From IMG/VR virus record IMGVR_UViG_3300012988_000130, positions 1-22,767 of that record: a stretch of DNA of 22,767 bases. One strand, written 5' to 3'. How positions within the stretch are numbered: position 1 is the first letter of the stretch; every line of letters starts with the position of its first letter. A program made the position numbers and the translations under genes. Below are positions 5,545-22,767 of this stretch, piece by piece. Source of the DNA: a virus. Below the pieces are notes generated by a model. It saw nothing but the letters and a program-made list of their open reading frames with translations, ran no database searches and had not been told where the DNA came from.

Positions 5545-7467
5545 CTAGGTGCTCTCGGCTACCGTGCGCATAACGACGGTAAGGTATCCACCGATCGGAC
5601 CATCAGGTCCCGGAGGGCCTGTCTGCTGGAACTCGAAGTCATCAATAACCACCTGGGTCACTAGTTGGGAAGCAAGCTCTTGGAACAGGACGACGTCACC
5701 GGCTCGGGCAATCGCTTCGAACTTCGACAGTCGCTCCTGGCAGTAGCCGTCGTAGCCGATTACCTGTCCGCCCCTGTCGGTCTCCTCGTCGAAGAGCAGG
5801 AACGGATGGGTGATGATGCGCTGGCGGATGGAACCAGGCAGGGCCTTGACCTGCCAGCCATTCATGATTGCTCCGATGCTGGAGTTCGAGACTCCACGGA
5901 ACAGAGTGAACCGCAGGGCTATCCAGTTCTGAGGGCCGGTAGGCTGAGAGATCCCGATGTCCTTGGTCCCACCTCCTTGGGTGGGACCGTAGGTGACAGT
6001 AGGAATGACGCCTCCACCTTCAGTAAGGATGGAGGCTGCAAGATTGCCGTCGAGTGGACTGGGCACCCGGACACTGAAGAACTTGTAGAGCTTGGGCTCT
6101 TCGGTGTTGAACCTGATGCGACCAGTGTCCAGTGTTCCCTGTGGCAGCAGCTCTGTCGCCTGCTCTCTGACGGAACCGAACTGGTTGATGGCGAACACCT
6201 TGCGGTCCGAGTTGCCGAACATGGTCAGTGAGACCACTCGACCCGGCTCTCCCTGAAGGTAGATGTCACGGGCGTAGGCGTACCGTACAGCCCTTGTCGT
6301 CTGCTCCTGGATCTGGTTACCCAGGTCGACCCTGTAAAGCCCGGAGGAGCCATCGTGCTGGGCTGTAGACCCAGTCCACATGAACCTGTCGTTGCCGACA
6401 ATGGCAGTGCATCCTCCGCTCACCTCAATGGTGAGCGGGCCGTAGGTGATGTCACCATTCGAGTCGATCTCTCCGACCCTGAAGCCCTTGTTGGTGGCGA
6501 TGCCTACAAAGGATCCGACGTAGGTGTAGATCGTATTGATCAGCTCACCAGCAGGCATGGTTGCGGTGACGCCCTGCCATTCCAGGATAGGAAGGTTGCC
6601 CGAGTCCAGCGTCGGAGAGAACTTGTGGATCTGGCTGGTGGTGCCTGAGTCGCCTGCAATGTAGATCGAGGTAGGCCCGTCAGTGATGCTCCGCCATCTC
6701 CAATCAGGATCCTGCATGGTGTACGTGACAGCAGGCAGTGCAGCCGGAGGGCTGGCAGGGGAGAGCAGGAGCTGATAGACAAGGTTGTTCTTGCAGTAGA
6801 TCAGCCGGTCCTTCACGAACTCGATGATGGCATTCGTGGTGGAGTCGGTGTAGATGGTCGTTGGTGCTCCGCCATCCACGCCCTTCACGATGCCAGTCGA
6901 CTTGGCCACAATGTAGGTAGCACCAGTCGACGTAAGATCAAGCAGATCTTCAGCAGCTCCAGAGATGATCGCACTGGTGACAGTCGCAGTCTTCTTGTCC
7001 AGGTTGTGCTGATCCATCTGCCAGTAGGCATTGTTGCCAGCGTTGGTCACGTAGCCCTGTACGACATTGTTGGGCAGCGCCGTAGCCCCATTGGCTACGG
7101 AGTTCCTGAGAAGCTTGAGCTGGCCACTGGTCCAGCAGTCGATGCCCAGTGAAGTGGCGAACCGGTAGTTGAACTGATTGTCGTTGTCGGGGTCCTGATA
7201 AAGAACCCCTGCGCCACCATTGAACGTCGACTGCGACCGGAGCCACCAGCCTTCGAGGGACTGCTCGCCAGGCTCTGCAAAGTTGTCGAACTGTTCCTTG
7301 CGAATGGGTGCCATGCGGTTGGTGTGCGGACGATTGTCCGTGATGGCGGAGAGGAAAGGCAGGCCCGCAATGGCGTAGTCGTAGATGTTGTCCTGTGGAA
7401 TGTACTGGCCGGAGCCAGCAGAACCCAGACCGGAAAGCTGATCGGGGATCTTGCGTACGACCTCCAT
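5545..7467 (-). CDS. Tail nozzle (tubular protein B-like) structural protein, 640 aa
   Basis: The ATG at 7467 has an AAAGGGG SD. The product is almost entirely short beta strands and turns, with repeated blade-like units (for example ITDGPTSIYIAGDSG, VGNDRFMWTGS, GSFVGIATNKGFRVGEID, NSDRKVFAINQFGS). These suggest a beta-propeller, as in the nozzle proteins of short-tailed phages. It lies in the same operon as the adaptor and fibre genes, the order expected for tail parts. The end has a short collagen-like stretch (TGPPGPDGPIGG) before a final strand. No enzymatic motif is visible. A large minor tail or receptor-binding protein is the alternative. Confidence 0.5.
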   Translation of the reverse strand: MEVVRKIPDQLSGLGSAGSGQYIPQDNIYDYAIAGLPFLSAITDNRPHTNRMAPIRKEQFDNFAEPGEQSLEGWWLRSQSTFNGGAGVLYQDPDNDNQFNYRFATSLGIDCWTSGQLKLLRNSVANGATALPNNVVQGYVTNAGNNAYWQMDQHNLDKKTATVTSAIISGAAEDLLDLTSTGATYIVAKSTGIVKGVDGGAPTTIYTDSTTNAIIEFVKDRLIYCKNNLVYQLLLSPASPPAALPAVTYTMQDPDWRWRSITDGPTSIYIAGDSGTTSQIHKFSPTLDSGNLPILEWQGVTATMPAGELINTIYTYVGSFVGIATNKGFRVGEIDSNGDITYGPLTIEVSGGCTAIVGNDRFMWTGSTAQHDGSSGLYRVDLGNQIQEQTTRAVRYAYARDIYLQGEPGRVVSLTMFGNSDRKVFAINQFGSVREQATELLPQGTLDTGRIRFNTEEPKLYKFFSVRVPSPLDGNLAASILTEGGGVIPTVTYGPTQGGGTKDIGISQPTGPQNWIALRFTLFRGVSNSSIGAIMNGWQVKALPGSIRQRIITHPFLLFDEETDRGGQVIGYDGYCQERLSKFEAIARAGDVVLFQELASQLVTQVVIDDFEFQQTGPPGPDGPIGGYLTVVMRTVAEST

Positions 7468-9042: not shown

Positions 9043-9972
9043 CTAGCTGTTGAAGGTCTGGAAGTTCTCGTAGAGGCGGAACAGTCGGTCCCGCTCCTCG
9101 TCAAGCCGTCGCTGATACAGACCAAGGAAGTACTTGGACGCATCAGAAGCTGCACCAGTCGGAACGAGTGGGGCTCGCTCCGTGGATTCAATGGACTGCT
9201 GCTGGAGTCGACCGGCTTCCCAGCCGGGCAGCAGGCGCCAGCAGGCGCCGTAGGTAATCATGTCGATCATCCGGTCAGGCAGTCCGGTAGTCAGCTCGAA
9301 GTCATCGTTGCCATTGACCAGGACGTTGGGCTTCTTGGTGTAGGTCACCCGGATGTCCCGTCCAGGGACAATGCCGCCATCGAGGATCTGAATGGTCTTG
9401 CCTGTGGGCGGAGGCGTGGGCTTCACCTGAGAACCAGTGGATGCCTGGGGATTGAACCTGTAGGTCCTGGCCGGACGCCAGATGGCGGACGGGCCAATGG
9501 TGTTCCAGGTCACCTTGTAGACATCTTCTGCCTCCGCCGGGATCGGATACTCGTAACGAGCTGCCACGTAAGGGAACTCGAACTCTCCGAATATCCAGAT
9601 GTCGGGATAGATAGCCCTGATGGTGTCGTTGATGGCTTCCTTGATGCGGACCCGAGGATAGCGAGGGTCAGCAATCGTGATGGCATCAGTCAGGTGAGGG
9701 GCTGGATCGGTGCCTTCGGCCCCTCTGCCGTTCAGGTTGGCCAGTACGCTGACAAGTCCGGTGGACCTGTCGACCTTCTTGACCAGAAGCATTTCATCAT
9801 CGATCTCTACGATGCCCCGGGACATGTTGGTAGACGTCTCCGGATCACACTGGAATATGACGTCAGTAGCAGTCATGTCCTGGGACAGGTAGGAGATGGA
9901 CTCTTGCACTCGGGTGTAGCCAAGCAATTGCTGCTTCACCCGCTGCGTGATCAGATCGAATGTAGCAGCCAT
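9043..9972 (-). CDS. Head-to-tail adaptor (tail tubular A-like), 309 aa
   Basis: The true start is the ATG at 9972 with an AAGGAG SD; the longer frame from 10296 runs through the preceding gene. The protein opens with a helix (TFDLITQRVKQQLLGY), then beta-rich segments (EIDDEMLLVKKVD). It then has the typical adaptor stretch RVRIKEAINDTIRAIYPDIW, and a C-terminal helical end rich in Arg (YQRRLDEERDRLFRLYENF). This helix/strand order resembles the T7 gp11 class and actinophage head-to-tail adaptors, which form the ring under the portal. The portal itself is not in the window. Confidence 0.6.
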   Translation of the reverse strand: MAATFDLITQRVKQQLLGYTRVQESISYLSQDMTATDVIFQCDPETSTNMSRGIVEIDDEMLLVKKVDRSTGLVSVLANLNGRGAEGTDPAPHLTDAITIADPRYPRVRIKEAINDTIRAIYPDIWIFGEFEFPYVAARYEYPIPAEAEDVYKVTWNTIGPSAIWRPARTYRFNPQASTGSQVKPTPPPTGKTIQILDGGIVPGRDIRVTYTKKPNVLVNGNDDFELTTGLPDRMIDMITYGACWRLLPGWEAGRLQQQSIESTERAPLVPTGAASDASKYFLGLYQRRLDEERDRLFRLYENFQTFNS

Positions 9973-9980
9973 GTTGCTCC

Positions 9981-10361
9981 TTAGAAGTCGGACACTTCGC
10001 CGTGGGCAACGGCGATGGTTACGGTGCTGGAAGGCGAGTTCAGTCTGAGCAGCACGGAGTTGCCAGGAGGCGCCTGAAGGGCTATGCCAACCTGACAGAC
10101 TGACTGGTTGGAAGTGACTCCGAGGAGCGACAGAAGACCAACGGCAGGCGTCGAGAGAGATACCGCAGCCATTACCGATCCGTTGACCGGATCGGAGTTG
10201 GTTCCCTGGATTGTCACTGTCGGGGTTGCCTGCTGCGCACCTACATTGATACCGGCGGAGAGTGAAGAGGAGATCGAGATGCTGCCCCTCCACCACTTGC
10301 CAGCAGGAATAGTGATGATGGTTCCCTGGTCCGTCGTAGAGGATCCAGAAAGAATGCTCAC
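9981..10361 (-). CDS. Beta-rich virion protein, 126 aa
   Basis: The GTG at 10361 directly follows the stop of the preceding gene, with GGGAGG as SD. The sequence is dominated by Ser/Thr/Val strands (TIITIPAGKWWRGSISISSS, TPTVTIQGTNSDPVNGSV) and ends in HGEVSDF, like small capsid-decorating or tail-side proteins. It pairs with the similar beta-rich protein upstream. No exact family is recognised. Confidence 0.6.
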   Translation of the reverse strand: MSILSGSSTTDQGTIITIPAGKWWRGSISISSSLSAGINVGAQQATPTVTIQGTNSDPVNGSVMAAVSLSTPAVGLLSLLGVTSNQSVCQVGIALQAPPGNSVLLRLNSPSSTVTIAVAHGEVSDF

Positions 10362-11933: not shown

Positions 11934-13172
11934 CTAGGACATCACGATCGGATTGATGATGCTTGAGATGTAGTCGTGGCCAGCATTGGACGGGTGCACG
12001 TTGTCCGTACCGGCAGGGCCTGGGGTATTCGCATTGCCCCAGTAGCCGAGGCCATTCCAGTAGGCCCAGGAGTTCCGGCCCAGTCCCCAGATGTTGACGT
12101 AGGCAGCACCGAAGGTGTCTGCCAGCCCCTTCATTCTGGTGCTGTAACCGGCGTAGATGCTGGGGTTCGTGAAGTGGCCGAAGTGCTGAGTGACAATCAT
12201 GATGTCAGTGTCACCAGTGGCGTCCTGGCCAAACGCTCCGTCTTTCACTGCAAGCAGGATGGTCGACATGTTCCTCATGAAGGTCTCACTGTCGACAGTT
12301 CCTGACGTCGCGTCGTTCGCTCCTAGATGCAGAATGAACAGGTCGCAGGGATTCGATGGACCACCATTCCACTGCTGGGTCAGCGCCGAAGCGCTGGACC
12401 AGTTGGCGGAGGTGGTGCCAGCCCTGCCAAGGTTGTCCACGATGCAGCCAGTTGAGTTCTCCCCAGCCACTCCAATGAGGCTCAGAGGCTCTGTGGGAGC
12501 TCCATTCCAGGAGATGACCACCGTGTGCTCAACAGGCGCTAGGCCGGTCACTGTGGTTACCTGAATGGATGTGGTGCCGATGGTCACCGTAACGGGCACT
12601 ATTGCTCCACCATCGATCTGGTAGGTGTAGTTGGCCCTCGGTGCTGCACCACTGATGTTGTAGATCTTCACGGTGCTGCCAGTCACCTTGTAGGTGGCAG
12701 TAGCTGCGGCCGTCGAGATCATGAAGCTGATGCCGGGCCCGAAGAACTGAGCGCCGGTAGTCCATGTGCCAGTCGTGGTTGCGAAGGAGCCGTTGCCTTC
12801 CCAGGTAGCCACGGCACCGGCCGTGGCGGACGAGATGACATCGGTTCTGGAGCTGGAGAACATCCCCGAGCCACCATCGCCATAGGTTCCCTGGACTGCT
12901 GTACGCATCTTGCCGACCCAGGAGTCGGTAATGGTGTTCTGTGCGTAGTAGCCCTCGGCTACAGAGGCACCGGCAACCATGATCTTGGATGCCTGAGTGC
13001 CTGAAGCATTGCGAGCCGGGCGCCAGAACTGTCCCCAGTCCGGTGGTACGTACACCTCCGCCTCGGGCTGTAGGTCTTCGAGCACGGTGATGCGCTGATC
13101 CTGACTGGTGAATGCGGCATTGACAGGCACATCCCAGTTTTCTGTGCCATGCGGAATTGGGGTATAGGTCAC
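11934..13172 (-). CDS. SGNH/GDSL-type esterase fused to fibre N-terminus, 412 aa
   Basis: The GTG at 13172 overlaps the previous stop (GTGA). Residues 1-35 (TYTPIPHGTENWDVPVNAAF) are the attachment start common to actinophage tail fibres. From about 62 the SGNH fold begins: block I KIMVAGASVAEG with nucleophile S70, block III HLGANDATSG around 284-287, and block V TDNVHPSNAGH with D390/H393. A beta insertion (about 140-225) sits between blocks I and III. The usual GDS is GAS, but Ser, Asn, Asp and His are kept. It should remove acetyl or similar groups from host surface polymers, opening the way for attachment or entry. Confidence 0.75.
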   Translation of the reverse strand: MTYTPIPHGTENWDVPVNAAFTSQDQRITVLEDLQPEAEVYVPPDWGQFWRPARNASGTQASKIMVAGASVAEGYYAQNTITDSWVGKMRTAVQGTYGDGGSGMFSSSRTDVISSATAGAVATWEGNGSFATTTGTWTTGAQFFGPGISFMISTAAATATYKVTGSTVKIYNISGAAPRANYTYQIDGGAIVPVTVTIGTTSIQVTTVTGLAPVEHTVVISWNGAPTEPLSLIGVAGENSTGCIVDNLGRAGTTSANWSSASALTQQWNGGPSNPCDLFILHLGANDATSGTVDSETFMRNMSTILLAVKDGAFGQDATGDTDIMIVTQHFGHFTNPSIYAGYSTRMKGLADTFGAAYVNIWGLGRNSWAYWNGLGYWGNANTPGPAGTDNVHPSNAGHDYISSIINPIVMS

Positions 13173-13961: not shown

Positions 13962-14984
13962 CTACGCGGTCGGGCGCAGAGTCGAAGTCGTCTGAGCAAC
14001 GATCAGGGACTCCGGACGGTACAGCGACCAGCCAGCAACGCCGTACCAGCCGAGCGGCTGGAAGCGGGTCAGCTTGTCGACGACCGGACCACGGACGGTG
14101 TGGAAGTCCTCAGCCACAGCCTCAGCCAGAGCCTGCTGACCGGTGTAGTACGTGTTGTACACACGCGAAGCACCAGCCGGAGCCGAAGGGCCGGAGTACG
14201 CAGCGCCGGTCTGGGCACTCTGGGCACGAGGAGTCTCGATGTACGCAGCGCCCTCGTAGGACCCGATCTCACCGGCCCAGATGTTGTCAGCAGCCGAGTA
14301 GTTGTGCGGGTCACGCCAGGCCGCAGCGCCAGTTTCCTGACGCAGGTCGAAGGAGACCTGCGGGTGGATGTAGGCGGTGTACAGCGAGCCCTTGTTCGGG
14401 TGAACCTTGTTGGTCCGGAGCTGCACGGGGGCGGTCCGGGCGATGACAGAGTTCATGGCAGAGTTGCTGATGTTGACGTCAGCAGCGCCACCGATCTGGT
14501 TCAGGGCAACAGGGTTGGTCGGGGTGGTGCCGAAGCCGTAACCGACCGTGCCGGTACCAGAACGCCGAAGCGTCTGGGTGCCCGCAGCAAGAACGTTCTG
14601 AACGATGAGGTCGACAGAGTCGATCAGGTTCCATGCCACCTGGTTGACGAGACCGGCAGTCACGTCGGTGAAGCTGAACAGGTCCAGCTTGTTGGAGACG
14701 AGGATCGAGTTACCATACTCGTTCAGGGTCACCGAGACGGTGGTCGGGTTACCGGCCGCAACGGCGTCCGGGTCAACCAGCTCGTTCAGCGGCGTGATCT
14801 GCTGAGCAAGGTCCTGGTACAGAGAGAAGACGACCGAAGAACCAGGCATCGCCTGCTGGACAGGTCGCTTGTCGGCGACCTGTCGGAACATCGGCTGTGC
14901 ACGCAGAGCGAACTCAAGCGCGCGGTCATAAGCAGTCTGGACAAGGGCAGCCATTGCCCCAGTGCCGGTAAAGGCGTTAGCCAT
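13962..14984 (-). CDS. Major capsid protein, N4-gp56 family-like, 340 aa
   Basis: The ATG at 14984 has an AGGAG SD. The N-terminal helix region (LVQTAYDRALEFALRAQPMF), ADKRPVQQAMPGSSVVF, the TPLNELVDPDAVAAGNPTTV arm, and VTLNEYGNSILVSNKLDL are typical of N4-gp56-type HK97-fold capsid proteins. YTAYIHPQVSFDLR and the C-terminal WYGVAGWSLYRPESL are also consistent. It forms the capsid shell. It sits between the scaffold upstream and the decoration-like gene downstream, the standard head-gene order. The long + strand frame opposite it is a shadow. Confidence 0.85.
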   Translation of the reverse strand: MANAFTGTGAMAALVQTAYDRALEFALRAQPMFRQVADKRPVQQAMPGSSVVFSLYQDLAQQITPLNELVDPDAVAAGNPTTVSVTLNEYGNSILVSNKLDLFSFTDVTAGLVNQVAWNLIDSVDLIVQNVLAAGTQTLRRSGTGTVGYGFGTTPTNPVALNQIGGAADVNISNSAMNSVIARTAPVQLRTNKVHPNKGSLYTAYIHPQVSFDLRQETGAAAWRDPHNYSAADNIWAGEIGSYEGAAYIETPRAQSAQTGAAYSGPSAPAGASRVYNTYYTGQQALAEAVAEDFHTVRGPVVDKLTRFQPLGWYGVAGWSLYRPESLIVAQTTSTLRPTA

Positions 14985-15013: not shown

Positions 15014-15505
15014 TTACTGGCCAGGATTCAAGTTGTTCGCCTGAGCCATGGCAGCAATAAGACTGTTGAGGTCATTAGCCTGCGAGATAGCAGCGCCAGC
15101 AGCCTCGAAGTTGCCGAGTGGCGTCCCACTCTGACCGGCTTCATTCATCTGCTGATACTGCTGCTGAACCTGCGCATCGAGCGCAGGGGCAGGCGGAGAA
15201 ACGGCAGCAGGGGTTCCCTGGTTGCCAGAGCCGAAGGCGGCTCGCATGGATTCAGCCCATGCACGGGCCTTCTCCGGGTCGGGCTCTCCCTGATACAGGC
15301 TCGCTGCATCCGGAACTCCCAGTTCGCTGAAGACGGACGAGAGCTTTTCCCTGGCACGCTCTGCCTTGATCTCCGCAAGCTCTGCGAGGATCGCGTCATT
15401 CTGTGCCTTCTGCGCCTTGTAAGCCTCCCGCAGCGCCTTGGGCCCATCGTTGTGGCCAGGCTCAGTCGACTCGGCGGTCTCGTCGTAACCCCATGCGTCG
15501 TTCAT
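15014..15505 (-). CDS. Capsid scaffolding protein, 163 aa
   Basis: The ATG at 15505 has a GGGAGA SD. A polar acidic N-terminus leads to a long charged helix (ALREAYKAQKAQNDAILAEL, then AEIKAERAREKLSSVF), typical of scaffold coiled coils. After GVPDAASLYQG comes a Pro/Gln-rich flexible part (PPAPALDAQVQQQYQQM) and a last helix (LNSLIAAMAQANNL) that may contact capsid protein. Position directly upstream of the capsid gene supports the role. No protease motif is visible. Confidence 0.75.
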   Translation of the reverse strand: MNDAWGYDETAESTEPGHNDGPKALREAYKAQKAQNDAILAELAEIKAERAREKLSSVFSELGVPDAASLYQGEPDPEKARAWAESMRAAFGSGNQGTPAAVSPPAPALDAQVQQQYQQMNEAGQSGTPLGNFEAAGAAISQANDLNSLIAAMAQANNLNPGQ

Positions 15506-15618: not shown

Positions 15619-15621
15619 CGG

Positions 15622-15692
15622 CCCGGATGGGGAGAATCGAACTCCCGTGAACGGTTTTGGAGACCGCCGCTCTGCCACTGAGCTACATCCGA
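15622..15692 (-). tRNA. tRNA-Trp (CCA anticodon)
   Basis: The 71-nt RNA folds by hand into a full cloverleaf. The acceptor stem is TCGGATG with CATCCGG (first pair U-G). The D arm is GCTC/GAGC, the anticodon stem GCGGT/ACCGT with loop CTCCAAA, the variable loop four nt, and the T arm GGGAG/CTCCC with loop TTCGATT. The anticodon CCA reads UGG (Trp). The discriminator is G and the CCA tail is not encoded. It lies inside the late operon between a virion gene and the scaffold gene. Confidence 0.9.
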
Positions 15693-15770: not shown

Positions 15771-16829
15771 CTACCTTGCTCCGCCCCGCTGGCCAAAGCC
15801 AGCACGGGCACCACCAGCAGCGCCACTGAAGTTGGCACGCTCCTGAGATGCAAGGCCCTTTCTCTTGTTCACCGCCGAGGCATTACCCCGGAAGGTAGCC
15901 TCTTCAGCTTCTCGCTGCGTGTAGCTGGTGCCGTAGATGGATGCCAGATCCTTCATGGTTCCAGCCTCCTGGGCAATCTGCGAGTAGCCCTGAGCGGCCT
16001 GATCGGCAGTGATGCCAGAAGTTGCCAGAGACTCGGCATACGTCTGGTCGAATGCCAGGTTGTTCTGAAGGGCCTGAGCCCCGATGGCAGCCGTTGCGGC
16101 CGCCTTCTGAATATACGGAAGGGCCTTCTTCTGATCGAGGAAGTAGGAAGTCAGCTCCCCGTCCGAAATGCCCATGGCATTCAGAGCCTTCTTATAGTTC
16201 GGATTAGCGAGGATCGTAGCCTGAGTAGCCAGATCCACCCTCGTCTGAATCTCTGAGGGGCTGACGTTCTTCCCGATCCAGGAATTGAAGTCGCTAGGCT
16301 GGTCATAGAATCCAGACGGCAGTCCGGCTGACTCCATGATCTGTCGGTAGCTGGCTTCCGTAGCGAGGTATTCACCCGCAGACAGGACAGGCAGGCCTGC
16401 CTTCTTGCGAAGCTCGTTGCCTGCGAAGCGTTCCTTGTACTCCTTGGTGTCCTGCAAAAGGATTGAGATGGTGTCAGCGCTGTACCCGTTCTTGACGTAA
16501 TCGTAGATCTTGCCTGACAGGCTTCCCAGTCCGTAGCTATTGAACAGCGCCGAGACCGCCGCAAAGGCGTCTCGGTTGTCACCGCTCAGAAGCTTGTCGT
16601 ACTGGCCTGTCACCTTGTAGAGCTCGTTCTGATTGGCCACATTGGCCTTGGCCTGGTTGTCCATGGCCTTCTGCGTAGTAGCCAGCCGCTTGTTCAGGGC
16701 CGCTATCAGAGCCTTGGAGTTTCCCTTGCGCTTGAGCTGGGCCTTCAGCCCCTCTATCTGCGCTCGGTAGGCAGAGACTTTCGACTTGCCAACCTTCAGC
16801 TTGAACTCAAGGTCACCTTCTGTTGCCAT
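15771..16829 (-). CDS. Coiled-coil virion (ejection-type) protein, 352 aa
   Basis: The ATG at 16829 has a GGAGGG SD. The first about 70 residues are a charged coiled coil (LEFKLKVGKSKVSAYRAQIE, then GLKAQLKRKGNSKALIAALN). The middle has a helical unit (FNSYGLGSLSGKIYDYVKNG, ISILLQDTKEYKERFAGN) like those of actinophage internal virion proteins. Its outline also echoes the shared module of the two hydrolase proteins next door. The rest is helical and Ala-rich, and the C-terminus is a Gly/Arg tail (GGARAGFGQRGGAR). No catalytic motif is seen. It is probably an internal core or DNA-ejection protein. Confidence 0.55.
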   Translation of the reverse strand: MATEGDLEFKLKVGKSKVSAYRAQIEGLKAQLKRKGNSKALIAALNKRLATTQKAMDNQAKANVANQNELYKVTGQYDKLLSGDNRDAFAAVSALFNSYGLGSLSGKIYDYVKNGYSADTISILLQDTKEYKERFAGNELRKKAGLPVLSAGEYLATEASYRQIMESAGLPSGFYDQPSDFNSWIGKNVSPSEIQTRVDLATQATILANPNYKKALNAMGISDGELTSYFLDQKKALPYIQKAAATAAIGAQALQNNLAFDQTYAESLATSGITADQAAQGYSQIAQEAGTMKDLASIYGTSYTQREAEEATFRGNASAVNKRKGLASQERANFSGAAGGARAGFGQRGGAR

Positions 16830-16837
16830 CTACCCTC

Positions 16838-18109
16838 CTAGTTCTTGACACCGAAGTCCGCAAGGACCTGGTGGGCTACCTGCATGAGACTGTTCTGGGC
16901 ATTCTGGGTGCCCTTCCAACGGTTGTCGGATCTGAGGTCGTTCTCGAACTGCCAGAGAGGCTTGACCGCATTGGCTCCAGTCGTCTTGTCCTTGTTCTGA
17001 AGAGCCTTCCGGATGGTCGGATCGAACAGATTGACACTGCCTGCTGGCAGCTCAAGGATCTGAGACATGGACTGCATGTAAGGAGCCGCCAGGTCTGCCA
17101 CTGTCTGACCTGCATCGAGCTGCTTGGACCACTGACTGAAGACGCCCTTGGCTGCATGCCTGATCTCATCCTCGAAATCCTGCTGAGTAGCCATCCCGCG
17201 CACGATCAGACGTGCGCGGTCTGCGAACCACTTGCCATTGAAAGCGACACCCATCTGGTAGGCGTAGGTCTTCAGCTTCTCGATGGCCTCACCACCCTCG
17301 CCGCCCCAGTCGTCATCCCCGAAGGTGACGAACTTGCCCAGTTCATCCCGCATCTGGGCATCTGTCCAGCCGTTCAACATGGACTTCATGGTCCAGTCGT
17401 CCAGCTTCTTGGACAGCTTGGAGTTGACGGTAATGCCGAGCTGAGCAGCCATTTGCTTGATCTTCACGCGCTGCTGGGCAAGCTGCTGCTTGGCTGTGGC
17501 GGGGTCGCCGTACTGGAGGATGAGGAACTTCCTCGCAGACTCAGGCTTGGACTTCCACCACTTGGTGTCCCGAAGGCCTGCCTGGAATTTGGCTGCCGTC
17601 CATCCGCCCTTGACTGCCTTGTCGAACAGCTTCTTCAGTTCAGGCACTGAGTTGAACAGAGACTCTACAAAGCCATAGCTTTCAGCAGTCTCTGACCGGC
17701 TCATTGGTGCACTGCCTCCACCACCTCCGCCCGACGAGGCGGAGGAAGAGCCACCAGAGTTCTTGACTGTGGCACTGGAGCCACCGTAGTACTTCTGGTA
17801 GGCACCATTGCCGTAGGTGGACCAGGGCCCCCAGTTCTTGCCGCCGTTGCTCATCTTGTAGGCGACTCGGGCATTGGTCAGGGGATCGAACAGTGCGTCA
17901 TTGGAGCTGAGCCCATACTGCCGACGCCTCTCGGGCCCCATGCCTCCCAGCATGTTGATCTGGAAGAGGCCATAGGAGTTGTCGCCCGTACCAGCGTTGC
18001 CGTTGTGGGCCCTGGCATTGCCTCCGGACTCGGCCATCGCAATGGCGTAAGCCATCTTGAGACCGTCACCCTTGAAGCCAGCCTGCTTGAGAATGCTCAT
18101 GAGGTCCAT
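16838..18109 (-). CDS. Virion SLT/goose-lysozyme-like transglycosylase with ejection module, 423 aa
   Basis: The ATG at 18109 shares a base with the previous stop (TGATG). Residues 1-108 are an SLT/goose-lysozyme-like fold: LKMAYAIAMAESGGN with likely catalytic E27, then NSYGLFQINM, then FDPLTNARVAYKMSNGG and WSTYGNGAYQKYY. A Gly/Ser linker (109-140) leads to a helical module of about 280 residues (from AESYGFVESLFNSVPELKKL). This module is clearly paralogous to the C-terminal part of the NlpC/P60 protein upstream. The enzyme cuts glycan strands of the cell wall, presumably during DNA entry, as T7 gp16 does. There is no signal peptide, so it acts from the particle. Confidence 0.8.
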   Translation of the reverse strand: MDLMSILKQAGFKGDGLKMAYAIAMAESGGNARAHNGNAGTGDNSYGLFQINMLGGMGPERRRQYGLSSNDALFDPLTNARVAYKMSNGGKNWGPWSTYGNGAYQKYYGGSSATVKNSGGSSSASSGGGGGGSAPMSRSETAESYGFVESLFNSVPELKKLFDKAVKGGWTAAKFQAGLRDTKWWKSKPESARKFLILQYGDPATAKQQLAQQRVKIKQMAAQLGITVNSKLSKKLDDWTMKSMLNGWTDAQMRDELGKFVTFGDDDWGGEGGEAIEKLKTYAYQMGVAFNGKWFADRARLIVRGMATQQDFEDEIRHAAKGVFSQWSKQLDAGQTVADLAAPYMQSMSQILELPAGSVNLFDPTIRKALQNKDKTTGANAVKPLWQFENDLRSDNRWKGTQNAQNSLMQVAHQVLADFGVKN

Positions 18110-19410
18110 CAGCTACCGCCTCCGCTCATGAGTCCCATGTCCCGAAGGATCGAATGGCCTACGTTCATCACTTGGTCCTGCGCTCCCTGAGTGGAGCGCC
18201 ATCGAGGGTCATTCCTCAGCATGCTCTGGAAGTCCGGAAGGTTCATGCCTGAAGGCTTCCCGTCCTTGTCCAGTCCATTGAGTGCATTGCGGATGGTCGG
18301 GTCCATGAGGCCAAGGGGAGAGTCGGGAAGCTCCAGCTCCTTGGACATCAGTTGCTGATAGGGGTTAGCGATGTCCTTCATCGTCATGCCCGCATCTATC
18401 TGCTCGCTGTATCCAGGGAATGCAGACTTCGCCTGCTCTCTGATCTGGCTCTCGAAGTCCTGACTGGTGGCCATCTTCCGCACCACCAGCTGAGCCTGGT
18501 TCTTGATTGCCTGGTCACCGATCTCGACGCCCATTTGGGCGGCGTACTGCTTCATGGTGAACTCATGCATGCCAGCCTCACCCTTGAGCGTGCCATCCTT
18601 GGTGAATGTCACGTACTGACCAAGGGCATCCCGGATCTGACCTTCCTCCATGCCCGTCCGCATGACAGTGTCAACGACACTCTTCAGCTTGGACTGAGGA
18701 ATGGCCGCCCCCATCTGGGCGGCCAGCTGCTGGACCTGAGTAGTCACTGCAAGCTGCTGAGCCTGCCATGTGGCAGGGTCTGTCTTCTCCAGCACTTGAG
18801 CCTGCCTGGCGCTCTCTGAGGTCTTCTTCCACCATGAAGTGTCCCGGAGTCCGGCTTGGAACTTTTCGGCCGTCCAGGAGCCGTCTACGGCTTCCTTGAA
18901 CAGCTTCTTGAGTTCACTGTTGCCGTTCAGAAATCCATATGCCCAGCCGTACGAGGCAGCCAGCTCCTCGGGAGTCATTTTGACCTCAGCTTCAGTCGGA
19001 CCATCGGCCACCGAAGCACCAGAAGTCTTGACTCCATCGATGCGACGGCCACCCATGAACCTGTCCAGGTAGTAGCCGGAGGTCATGTCAACCACTTCGG
19101 CAGACTTGCCGGGGCGGGGAGTATGGAACATCTTCCCGTTGCCCATATAGATGCCGACATGGTCAGGTCCGGCTACATTCTTGTCGGTGTCGAAGAAGAC
19201 CAGATCGCCAGGGCGAAGGCCCTTCATTCCGATGGCCTGACCCTGGCCGATCTGGTCGTAGGTAACTCGGGGCAGCTTGATTCCGAAGTGAGCAAAGCCG
19301 TACTGCATCAGGCCGGAACAATCGAAGCCTCCAGGCTGGGCACCGCCCCAGACGTAAGGCGTACCCTTGAACTGCAACAGGTACTTGACGATGTCCTCAC
19401 CTGACGCCAT
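18109..19410 (-). CDS. Virion NlpC/P60 peptidase with ejection module, 433 aa
   Basis: The ATG at 19410 has a GGAGG SD. Residues 1-125 are a complete NlpC/P60 domain: GTPYVWGGAQPGGFDCSGLM with nucleophile C31, GLRPGDLVFFDTD, DHVGIYMGNGKMFHTP with H84 and third polar residue H96. A short linker (126-145) leads to a module of about 280 residues (SYGWAYGFLNGNSELKKLF, FQAGLRDTSWWKKTSESAR, MATSQDFESQIREQAK, DPTIRNALNG) shared with the transglycosylase protein. The domain cuts peptide cross-links or stems of peptidoglycan. Together the two proteins can open both bond types of the wall at entry. Confidence 0.85.
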   Translation of the reverse strand: MASGEDIVKYLLQFKGTPYVWGGAQPGGFDCSGLMQYGFAHFGIKLPRVTYDQIGQGQAIGMKGLRPGDLVFFDTDKNVAGPDHVGIYMGNGKMFHTPRPGKSAEVVDMTSGYYLDRFMGGRRIDGVKTSGASVADGPTEAEVKMTPEELAASYGWAYGFLNGNSELKKLFKEAVDGSWTAEKFQAGLRDTSWWKKTSESARQAQVLEKTDPATWQAQQLAVTTQVQQLAAQMGAAIPQSKLKSVVDTVMRTGMEEGQIRDALGQYVTFTKDGTLKGEAGMHEFTMKQYAAQMGVEIGDQAIKNQAQLVVRKMATSQDFESQIREQAKSAFPGYSEQIDAGMTMKDIANPYQQLMSKELELPDSPLGLMDPTIRNALNGLDKDGKPSGMNLPDFQSMLRNDPRWRSTQGAQDQVMNVGHSILRDMGLMSGGGS

Positions 19411-19412
19411 TG

Positions 19413-20342
19413 CTAACCTCCAGTAATCATCTGCATGAGAGCGTTGAAGTAAGTGGTACCAGCCTGGTACTTGCCGTACTCAGGCCCCTTCTTCGCTCCG
19501 CCTTCCACAATGGAACCCAGGGCAGCCTGGGAAGCACCACCCGTAGTGGTGCTGGACTGGGCTACCTCTTCCCCCATGTCATTGAGAGTGTGAGTAGTCG
19601 TAGTCATCTCAGGGTTTGCCCGCTCATAGCCATTGATGCTGGACCGGTACTTGGCCAGCTCTTCATCCGTAGGTGCACGGCCAAGCAGCTCCGTGAGCAT
19701 CTGAGTAGTCAGTGCCCTGACGTCCTCGGGGGACGACAGGTTGACGTTCTTGCTCGTGGTCGTCTTGGTCCGGGGTCCTACATACTTGACCTTATCGCCG
19801 GTCCTGGCGTCATAGAGCCAGTCACCCTTGCGGATGGTACCGAAGCCCTTGCCGTCATTGGCGTAGGAACCCATGACATCCCAGGGCGACCACTCGGCAC
19901 CTTCCTTGGAGAACGCCTGGGCGGACTTTACGAGTCCATCCCAGGCATCCATGATCTCAGGCATGCCCATGTTGTAGTCGAAGCCAGGCATCTTGTAGAG
20001 AATGCCCTTGGAGATGAAGTCCCGCTTCTGCTTCTCGTCCCAGTTAATGGGAGCCATGCGGGCATTCTCGTAGCTGTCGGTGTTCTTGCCCGAGAAGGCC
20101 CCAATCATGCCCACACCACCAGCCGCAAGGCCGGGGTTGAGGATCCCCTTGTTGGGTCCGAGATAGACTCGGCTGCCAGGAGTTCCAGGCTTTGAATTGA
20201 AGCCACTCAGATAAGCCCCGGCATCAAAGCCGGGGCCAGCAGACACCGTCGACCCACCAGACAGGCCGGAGCCAGTGGCCTGAAGGGCCGCAAGTCCCTG
20301 CTGCTGCTGAGCTTGGTCCAGAACATAAGGCCCATCGGCCAT
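19413..20342 (-). CDS. Virion-associated protein, 309 aa
   Basis: The ATG at 20342 has an AAGGAG SD. The N-terminus is Gln/Gly-rich and flexible, with a Gly/Ala-rich stretch (GLAAGGVGMIGAFSG) that might cross or touch a membrane. The middle has NWDEKQKRDFISKGILYKMP, and the C-terminal part has LLGRAPTDEELAKYRSSING, a helical segment found in actinophage internal virion proteins. Two Thr-rich patches (TKTTTSK, MTTTTHT) are present. It lies between the giant protein and the paired hydrolases, so it is probably part of the same ejection machinery. No enzymatic motif is seen. Confidence 0.55.
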   Translation of the reverse strand: MADGPYVLDQAQQQQGLAALQATGSGLSGGSTVSAGPGFDAGAYLSGFNSKPGTPGSRVYLGPNKGILNPGLAAGGVGMIGAFSGKNTDSYENARMAPINWDEKQKRDFISKGILYKMPGFDYNMGMPEIMDAWDGLVKSAQAFSKEGAEWSPWDVMGSYANDGKGFGTIRKGDWLYDARTGDKVKYVGPRTKTTTSKNVNLSSPEDVRALTTQMLTELLGRAPTDEELAKYRSSINGYERANPEMTTTTHTLNDMGEEVAQSSTTTGGASQAALGSIVEGGAKKGPEYGKYQAGTTYFNALMQMITGG

Positions 20343-20351
20343 GGCTACTCC

Positions 20352-22767
20352 TTACTGAAGGTCGTCGTTAGACAGGTACCTGTTCATGAGTTCGTTGAAT
20401 GCGATGTTGGAGTTGGCGAGCCCCATTCGGAACTGGCCCCACGCATATCCGATGTCGGCAGACTCTCCGATGGGAGTGATCCCATCAGCGGCGTAGGAAA
20501 CCTGACTAGCCCCTCGCTGCTTGAGCGCCTTCTTGAACATCGCACGCCCTGCCAGGTACTGCTGGAGTACCGGCATCTCCCGACGCATCGGGTCGTTCAT
20601 CAGCTTCTCGTCCTTGAGTGCAATCTCGAACGAGCGTATGCGGCTCTGAACCTTGCCACGATCGGTGACATTGAATGCCTCTCCCCATGCGGGGTACTGC
20701 TGAGACGTTCCATCCACCAGGTTTTTCCTGGCCTGGTTGAGCTGTTCGGCTCCCGATTCACTGTAGGACTTGAAGCCATTGCGAATGAGCAGATAGTCCA
20801 GATACATCTTCCCGGCCTTGTACTGATTCCAGCCGGTAGAGATCTGGTTCTGCTCAATGGCGTGCTCCGCAGGGATTTTCTCCCGAGCCTTCTCGGCTCC
20901 GAAGTTCTGCTCCATCTGCTTCGCATATACGGCGGAGGAGAAAGGACCTCCGTTGTAGACATCGCCCACCCAGAAGGCAGCCATGTCAGGGTCGGCAGAA
21001 ATCTCGTCCTTGTACTTCTCTGCCTGCTGGTCAGCGCTGATGGTGGCAGCAATTCCCATTGACTTGGACAGGGAGGCAGTGAAGCCCGAGTAGTCCGCCC
21101 CGAACTTGGCAAGGAACCTGTCATTGGCAGTCTCAGGATCAATCTTCTTGAGCTGAGAGAGCTGGTCGACAAAGAACTGGTACGGCGTTCCGGTGAGGGG
21201 AGTCTGCTGCGTCTGAGCAGGAGATCCCCACGCCTCCAGGAAGTCCAGGAAGAGGAACTGCTTGGCCTCTTGCTCGATCTCCTTGGGTGAGAACTTAGTG
21301 CCGTTCTCGTGGAACTCCATCTGCTTCTTGTTCCAGATTGCCAGGTAAGCCTTCTGGTATGCCTCGTTGTCCGGGTCATCACCCTGATACGCAGCCCAGA
21401 GGCTGCGCATGTACTTCGGAGTGATGGCCTCAGTCATTGAGCCAGAAGGTCCGTAGGGCAGGATCTTGGACCACTGAAGGAACTCTCCAGTCGAAGGCGC
21501 CGCCTTAGCGAGCGCCGTACCAGCCACCTGAACCATAGGTCCAGAGCCAGGGTTCCACCAAGGATCCCCAGGTAGGATGGTGTTCATGGCCTGAAGCTTG
21601 ATCGGAACAGTGCCGCTACCCTTCTCCGCCCATGGGGCTTTGAGATGAAGCGTCCTGTCCTGGATCGGAACGAACTTCCTGCCGATCACCTTAGCCGTCC
21701 CCGGAATAGGATGGCCCTTCTTGTCCAGCTTATACGTAGTCGGGTCTACAATGTCCGCATAGCCATCCTGGCCAACCAGGTTGCCCTGAGCATCGGTCAC
21801 CATGTTGGCTGCGACCGGGGCATTGTAGATCTGAGCAATCCTGCCGAGGGCCTGTGGCTTCTCAGCGATCAGCCCACCCCATCGGGCAAGGCCGTCAGCG
21901 TGAGCCGAGTAGAACGGAGCTATGAACCGAAGGGCCTCGGATGCCGAAGTCCTTGTAGGGTCATAGACGATCTGAGCCATATCCTTGCGAGCCATCTTGT
22001 CCGACTTCAGCATGAGCTGATTCAGCTCTTCCGGAGTCAGGTGATCCGTCTTGCCCTGAGACATACGGACTCGAAGCTCACCATCGATCAGCTCCTTCAT
22101 CCGCCCTTCCTGGAACTTGACGTACACAGGGTTCCGGGACATGACCGAAGAAGGAATGGCACCCAGCCTCTTGAAGCCGTTCTTAATGGCGGCATCGAGG
22201 ATGTTGCCAGGCTGGTGCTTGCCCCACAATGCAGTCTTGTCCAGAACTTCCTGGCCGTGAACAACCGGGAAGTCATTGGGCGGGATTGCCTTGTGGAGGT
22301 CGGCCTTGGTGAGGTCTTCACCGTCAAGCAGCTTCTGTCGCAGGCCAGTGTCCTCGGGAAGGTACTTGTCCAGAGTGAGCCTGATCTTTTTGATCAGTTC
22401 CTCGGGGTCCTTTCCCTGTCCGCCGATGTCCTTCAGATGCTGCTTGCCAGCAGGCGTTGCAAAGTACCTACGGGCGGCTTCGCCCGTAGAGTCCTGCATG
22501 ACCAGCCGGAAACCTTCATCCTGAGCGAACTGACGGTTGAGGGCATTGAGCCATTCAGCCATGTGCTGCGGCTGATCGGGAGTGATGTAGTCCCAGGAGC
22601 CGGAGCGGATAAGCCGCTCCTTGTCCACAGCCTCAGCCCTGGCGTAAATGGCGGACGCCGCAACGTCCCCCTCCGCGTCGAACTGAGAGCGGGCAATCGG
22701 GTTGGCCCACTCCTTGGAGAACGCCTGAGGCACCGTGTAGCCACGGTACTGAAAGGACTTCTCTCCG
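20352..22767 (-). CDS. Giant virion protein, C-terminal about 805 aa (N-terminus outside window)
   Basis: The frame is open to the right edge, continuing upstream of an internal GTG at 22733 as GEKSFQYRGYTV. That GTG has no good SD, so the true start lies outside. The visible part is mostly helical: HMAEWLNALNRQFAQDEGF, then EALRFIAPFYSAHADGLARW, GRIAQIYNAPVAANMV, a beta-turn insertion with PTTYKLDKKGHPIPG, and a long charged helical C-terminus ending in MNRYLSNDDLQ. The FIAPFYSAHADGLARW segment recurs in giant actinophage structural proteins. A role as a T7 gp16-like channel or ejection protein is inferred from size and neighbours. No catalytic motif is recognised here. Confidence 0.6.
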   Translation of the reverse strand, partial: GEKSFQYRGYTVPQAFSKEWANPIARSQFDAEGDVAASAIYARAEAVDKERLIRSGSWDYITPDQPQHMAEWLNALNRQFAQDEGFRLVMQDSTGEAARRYFATPAGKQHLKDIGGQGKDPEELIKKIRLTLDKYLPEDTGLRQKLLDGEDLTKADLHKAIPPNDFPVVHGQEVLDKTALWGKHQPGNILDAAIKNGFKRLGAIPSSVMSRNPVYVKFQEGRMKELIDGELRVRMSQGKTDHLTPEELNQLMLKSDKMARKDMAQIVYDPTRTSASEALRFIAPFYSAHADGLARWGGLIAEKPQALGRIAQIYNAPVAANMVTDAQGNLVGQDGYADIVDPTTYKLDKKGHPIPGTAKVIGRKFVPIQDRTLHLKAPWAEKGSGTVPIKLQAMNTILPGDPWWNPGSGPMVQVAGTALAKAAPSTGEFLQWSKILPYGPSGSMTEAITPKYMRSLWAAYQGDDPDNEAYQKAYLAIWNKKQMEFHENGTKFSPKEIEQEAKQFLFLDFLEAWGSPAQTQQTPLTGTPYQFFVDQLSQLKKIDPETANDRFLAKFGADYSGFTASLSKSMGIAATISADQQAEKYKDEISADPDMAAFWVGDVYNGGPFSSAVYAKQMEQNFGAEKAREKIPAEHAIEQNQISTGWNQYKAGKMYLDYLLIRNGFKSYSESGAEQLNQARKNLVDGTSQQYPAWGEAFNVTDRGKVQSRIRSFEIALKDEKLMNDPMRREMPVLQQYLAGRAMFKKALKQRGASQVSYAADGITPIGESADIGYAWGQFRMGLANSNIAFNELMNRYLSNDDLQ

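Follow-up and report, generated by a model that had tools for sequence, protein, structure and literature searches.

The window, a viral record of 22,767 bases, encodes two adjacent proteins in which different wall hydrolase domains, an NlpC/P60 peptidase and an SLT_3 lytic-transglycosylase-like domain, precede copies of one duplicated helical module (Table 1). A comparison with the pairs of about 80 related viruses indicates that the gp11-class (peptidase) heads evolve together with their module, whereas the gp12-class (glycosidase) head appears, from the sequences, to be a cassette that is repeatedly replaced or lost. We consider that the pair probably serves genome entry as a wall-drilling device whose two enzymes are split between two proteins and mounted by the duplicated modules. 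The system belongs to a kind already known, of which it is a clear variant that is undescribed in the literature as far as we searched it.

Table 1. Features of the window and of the records compared with it (positions refer to the window unless another record is named)
Feature	Position	Strand	Remarks
Large gp9-class protein (phrog_10618)	20352..22733	-	C-terminal ~790 aa; cut at window end
gp10-class protein, 309 aa (phrog_13037)	19413..20342	-	conserved neighbour
gp11-class protein, 433 aa	18109..19410	-	NlpC/P60 head, residues ~16-123; linker; helical module, ~144-430
Module copy of NlpC protein	18109..18981	-	about 285 aa
gp12-class protein, 423 aa	16838..18109	-	SLT_3 lytic-transglycosylase-like head; Gly/Ser linker; helical module, residues ~136-423
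Head of gp12-class protein	~17816-18088		residues ~8-98
Module copy of SLT protein	16838..17704	-	about 285 aa
gp13-class protein, 352 aa (phrog_8424)	15771..16829	-	conserved neighbour and candidate partner
tRNA-Trp	15620-15692	-	single
Scaffold-like protein (phrog_7813)	15014..15505	-	upstream of major capsid gene; gene-order landmark
Major capsid protein (phrog_1357)	13962..14984	-	gene-order landmark
PHROG tail protein with GDSL lipase/acylhydrolase domain	11934-13172	-	PF13472, C-terminal, residues 245-400
Protein with SU10-type adaptor domain	9043-10296	-	PF24175
640-aa protein	5545-7467	-	strong phrog_11667 match (E=5e-297); no Pfam match or known function
Single-module proteins without recognised wall hydrolase head	L135:6978-8306; L136-L145
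gp12 head split over two frames	L120:1196-2936 (also L121)
WheeHeim gene 26	L146:2956-3624
WheeHeim gene 31	L146:4272-4952
Toil gp23	L148:2842-3501
Toil gp26	L148:4300-4959
P-SCSP1u, 953-aa gp15-position protein	L149:4418-7279		SLT_3 at C-terminus

Both open reading frames are present where an earlier note on this DNA, made from its letters alone, had placed them, and they overlap by one base (18109). Pfam assigns a single wall hydrolase domain to each protein, above cut-off: PF18896 SLT_3 (E=2e-23, residues 8-98) in one and PF00877 NLPC_P60 (E=2e-29, residues 16-123) in the other. These are the glycan-cutting and peptide-cutting types that the note had called unrelated, and a BLASTP comparison of the two proteins gave no meaningful similarity between the heads. 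The same comparison found the C-terminal parts 44% identical over 308 residues (E=4e-77), and all of the identical blocks named in the note (SELKKLF/PELKKLF, KFQAGLRDT-x-WWK, DPAT, QDFE and DPTIR) were recovered; its module limits needed a slight correction, from starts at residues ~143 and ~152 and a length of ~280 residues to starts at ~136 (SLT protein) and ~144 (NlpC protein) and ~285 residues by HMM. In AlphaFold2 models the module is all-helical with an identical order of helices in both proteins; the confidence is high in the SLT protein, where most of the module has a pLDDT of 90-98, and moderate in the NlpC protein, where most of it has 70-90 (pTM 0.47). The E-value and the conserved helices rule out a chance or low-complexity similarity. 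The SLT head itself was poorly modelled (pLDDT ~50-70), and we therefore draw no conclusion from its model. A similar-looking motif (SYGL...GYSADTISILLQDT) raised the question whether gp13 might be a further, third module copy, which we rejected on an hhalign probability of 1%.

The window covers part of the genome of a virus related to the Beephvirinae, the Streptomyces podoviruses of cluster BF. In FlowerPower, Immanuel3, Abafar and Stella, the genes follow the order gp9 (~1,640 aa), gp10, gp11 (NlpC/P60), gp12 (glycosidase), gp13, tRNAs, scaffold-like protein and major capsid protein, and homologous proteins from gp9 to gp13, scaffold and major capsid stand in this order in the window. Between gp13 and the scaffold gene, the window has one tRNA as against 14-22 in the named members of the subfamily; as it does not carry the large tRNA array, we file it as a relative of the Beephvirinae and not as a member. 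Podoviral morphology has been reported for Abafar and other cluster BF phages; the SU10-type adaptor domain in one of the window's proteins fits a podovirus. Among the other genes of the window, the GDSL domain of a tail protein possibly has a surface polymer as its substrate.

The named Beephvirinae (FlowerPower, Immanuel3, Manuel, Abafar) have the same two proteins in the same order, with the NlpC/P60 head on gp11 and with modules that are orthologous to those of the window (52-57% identity). The gp12 proteins that we checked in them differ by another transglycosylase-type head ('TFEQFFSAISEQESGG...') in place of SLT_3. The module of the window's NlpC protein is 53-56% identical to that of gp11, and the module of its SLT protein 52-56% to that of gp12, whereas identities across the classes are 37-45%; the pair was thus inherited, and the duplication predates the split of these phages. 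In RefSeq, gp11 is labelled a 'peptidase' and gp12 a 'glycosylase'; the label in SEA-PHAGES records is 'minor tail protein' for both, and the annotations make no mention of a shared module. The suggestion that this was an undescribed system therefore has to be narrowed: the pair is standard and already annotated in the Beephvirinae, while our search of the open-access literature turned up no paper in which the duplicated module is described.

To follow the history of the two genes, we gathered loci by scanning IMG/VR with module queries and by a scan of bacterial genomes, obtaining 183 distinct complete module proteins; the bacterial scan contributed just one relative, which lies in an assembly of Streptomyces himalayensis on a contig of 44.9 kb. 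All 86 loci with at least 1.5 kb on both sides contain exactly two module genes. Where both genes are complete (78 loci), they are adjacent or overlapping, with gaps of at most 21 bases, and large apparent overlaps arise because the first possible start codon was taken. One branch of the module tree (SH-aLRT 99) separates 88 NlpC-headed, gp11-class proteins from 95 others, the gp12 class. Beyond the Streptomyces phages, a distant relative of the module was found in only one named phage, ct2KA10, which together with IMG/VR relatives (L136-L145) keeps the same gene order with one module protein: a gp9-sized protein, the single-module protein, gp13, scaffold and capsid. Profiles for NlpC, SLT_3 and the divergent SLT-like head that we name TGL detected no head on this protein. 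Four records of the single-module lineage gave no NLPC_P60 match above cut-off, and weak sub-threshold matches occurred in small separate open reading frames. The gene duplication proposed in the earlier note is thus borne out by the homology of the modules, the presence of both in every complete locus, their two classes on the tree and the distant lineage with one module in the same slot. When the tree is rooted with this lineage, gp11 forms a clade (100/99); the outgroup branch is very long, so that either paralogue may be the ancestral one.

The two classes differ sharply in what their modules carry. An NlpC/P60 head is present in 88/88 complete gp11-class proteins, each with the motif DCSG, and the catalytic Cys and His (C31 and H84) are invariant in a 42-row alignment. 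The 95 gp12-class proteins comprise 72 with TGL heads, nine with SLT_3, one with a classical SLT domain (L074), seven that are headless and six with a short extension in which no enzyme was recognised. Modules of the gp12 class thus occur with one of three transglycosylase types or with none. An E-S/T motif is found in 81 of the 82 glycosidase heads, with a broken frame in the remaining one, and the SLT_3 heads conserve the catalytic Glu motif ESGG / GDNSYGLFQIN. In L120 and L121 the gp12 head is split over two frames, by an assembly error or because the head is broken. Head swapping, as first suggested, is therefore upheld for the glycosidase protein, more strongly than could have been known from one sequence, but not for the peptidase, whose heads are all NlpC/P60.

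On the gp12 module tree, head type requires 14 changes, of which SLT_3 alone accounts for seven, at least six of them forced by well-supported branches. A careful 45-row tree again gave seven SLT_3 changes; placing SLT_3 in one clade costs 639 log-likelihood units, and an AU test, made after the first tree had been seen, rejects a single SLT_3 origin (p-AU 0.00012). Two motif variants inside the TGL heads add about 12 changes on the module tree. Across all pairs of proteins, the similarity of heads follows that of modules in gp11 (Spearman 0.72) and far less so in gp12 (0.24). The exchange can be seen at the DNA level in three contigs, L061, L062 and L065: the end of gp11 before the head is 86-93% identical, the module and downstream genes are mostly 75-96% identical, and the head region between them is only 37-65% identical, the transition falling cleanly, as in a cassette, where the module begins. 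L062 has an SLT_3 head and the other two have TGL heads, so that L062 compared with L061 or L065 gives a score ratio of 0.95 for the module and 0.05-0.08 for the head. Such unrelated heads on nearly identical modules, the rejection of a single SLT_3 origin and the continuing likeness of SLT_3 heads on distant modules make it extremely improbable that the gp12 heads all diverged from a common ancestral head, without any swap, even though all three types belong to the SLT/lysozyme-like set of Pfam families and hhalign aligned their catalytic motif (without significance).

As the headless relatives demonstrate, some lineages can do without the glycosidase half. We rejected the idea that the lost enzyme had moved elsewhere in these genomes: eight headless or short-headed records (~40-46 kb, contigs that may be incomplete) had no SLT, SLT_3 or TGL domain at another site by profiles, a search that covered these glycosidase families. 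It included a head profile because PF01464 alone overlooks some TGL heads (L090, for instance). The NlpC protein is kept in all four of the headless or short-headed genomes tested for it.

In the device that we favour, each protein would have its catalytic head at the N-terminus, joined by a flexible Gly/Ser linker to a helical module of ~285 residues that is soluble. The module, derived from a gene duplication, would mount its enzyme on the DNA-delivery apparatus of the virion, where its partners are probably gp9, gp10 and gp13, encoded alongside. During entry, the NlpC/P60 head would cut stem peptides and the SLT-type head glycan strands, and their joint cutting would breach the thick wall locally. 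Of the two heads, that of the peptidase would be a fixed part, and that of the glycosidase a cassette that may be replaced or dropped while the module is always kept. We infer the presence of both proteins in the virion, their use at entry, the docking role, the bonds cut and the joint cutting of peptide and glycan; a docking of both modules on one ring, as the note suggested, would be a conjecture. Gene position and analogy suggest that both are virion proteins. The conservation of the module and its survival without a head point to docking; that it always persists while the glycosidase head comes and goes suggests a structural role of its own, and as it has no hydrophobic segment, it is likely to be a protein-protein mount. 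A role in entry is suggested by the adjoining portal, scaffold and capsid genes, by the fusion to a conserved module, by a separate endolysin and holin in relatives and by the relatives of the SLT_3 head, of which the closest named one is gene 26 of the Streptomyces tectivirus WheeHeim (65% identical). This gene has been equated with the virion-associated transglycosylase of PRD1 (PMC6950372).

Both head types also occur in endolysins, and the pair could accordingly be read as lysis enzymes and not as virion proteins. We regard this as highly improbable, since relatives carry their endolysin gene (gp2) and holin elsewhere, both proteins are fused in every relative to a long conserved module amid conserved structural genes, and neither a signal anchor nor a transmembrane segment was detected in them. 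The same prediction, which extends to all of gp9-gp13 in having no hydrophobic or membrane-spanning segment, would suit proteins that form part of an external tail, in its knob or tip, as a fixed drill that is not ejected from the head. SEA-PHAGES annotators place gp11 and gp12 in the tail by their label, and a component of the phi29 tail-tip knob is known to hydrolyse peptidoglycan (PMC6116005). On the other hand, the genes lie between the portal and the scaffold and capsid genes, beside a protein of ~1,640 residues, with adaptor and tail-like genes beyond the capsid gene, an arrangement that is closer to ejection-protein clusters and that weighs weakly either way. A tail location seems to us possible, though rather unlikely.

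Several known systems resemble the proposed device in part. The tectiviruses Toil (gp23 with SLT_3, gp26 with NlpC/P60) and WheeHeim (gene 26 with SLT_3, gene 31 with M23) also combine a glycosidase with a peptidase, and the glycosidase of actinobacterial tectiviruses is regarded as an entry enzyme. The C-terminal membrane part is shared by the two WheeHeim proteins (E=2e-16) and likewise by the two Toil proteins (40% over 52 residues, E=7e-8), scores that come partly from hydrophobic residues. Tectiviruses are unrelated to the window, belonging to another realm. What their proteins share is a short part that spans the membrane, whereas the module of the window is long and soluble; a C-terminal membrane anchor of the PRD1/tectivirus type is absent from the window pair, with one hydrophobic segment in each tectivirus protein and none in either window protein. 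Even so, unrelated viruses of actinobacteria seem to have come separately to carry a peptidase and a glycosidase on similar mounts. As to annotation, WheeHeim gene 26 is recorded as a 'glycosyltransferase', and its domain is a lysozyme-like lytic transglycosylase (PF18896, PF01464).

Another podovirus of a Gram-positive host, phi29, has in its tail knob protein gp13 an enzyme that hydrolyses peptidoglycan at entry, as proposed for the pair. It has a lysozyme-like and an M23 domain, hence two enzymes in one polypeptide, whereas the window has two paralogous proteins with one enzyme each. The T7-type ejection proteins gp15 and gp16 likewise bring a wall hydrolase on an entry protein, and their mobile peptidoglycan-hydrolase domain moves between gp16 and gp15 homologues (PMC8954989). 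Unlike them, the window pair has two enzymes on two paralogues, and the solved T7-type proteins have no detectable sequence or fold match to the module. More generally, solved structures gave no significant match to the module, by sequence or by fold, and no significant relative of gp9 or gp13, solved ejection proteins included; likeness to known ejection proteins could therefore not be shown for gp9 and gp13. In the T7-like cyanophage P-SCSP1u, an SLT_3 domain lies at the C-terminus of the protein in the gp15 position.

Beyond the device itself, we would put forward, as a tentative idea that we hold possible and still doubtful, an entry machine of podoviruses in which two paralogous mounts assemble together, one bearing a peptidase arm that stays fixed and the other a glycosidase arm that can be exchanged. 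Phage populations would replace the glycosidase cassette to follow differences in the wall chemistry of their hosts, and tectiviruses would have invented the same design independently in their pairs.

Little is known of the way in which podoviruses of Gram-positive hosts cross the thick wall; the systems listed in a review of ejection proteins are mostly Gram-negative, and phi29-like phages are described there as being without such proteins (PMC8954989). The conserved gene set described here, found in cultivable Streptomyces phages, offers a natural series of states, namely a single module without a recognised enzyme, a peptidase only, and a peptidase with one of three glycosidase types. With this series, one can test directly whether each enzyme is needed, and the boundary between head and mount is a point at which nature has already tried out the fusion of wall-cutting enzymes.
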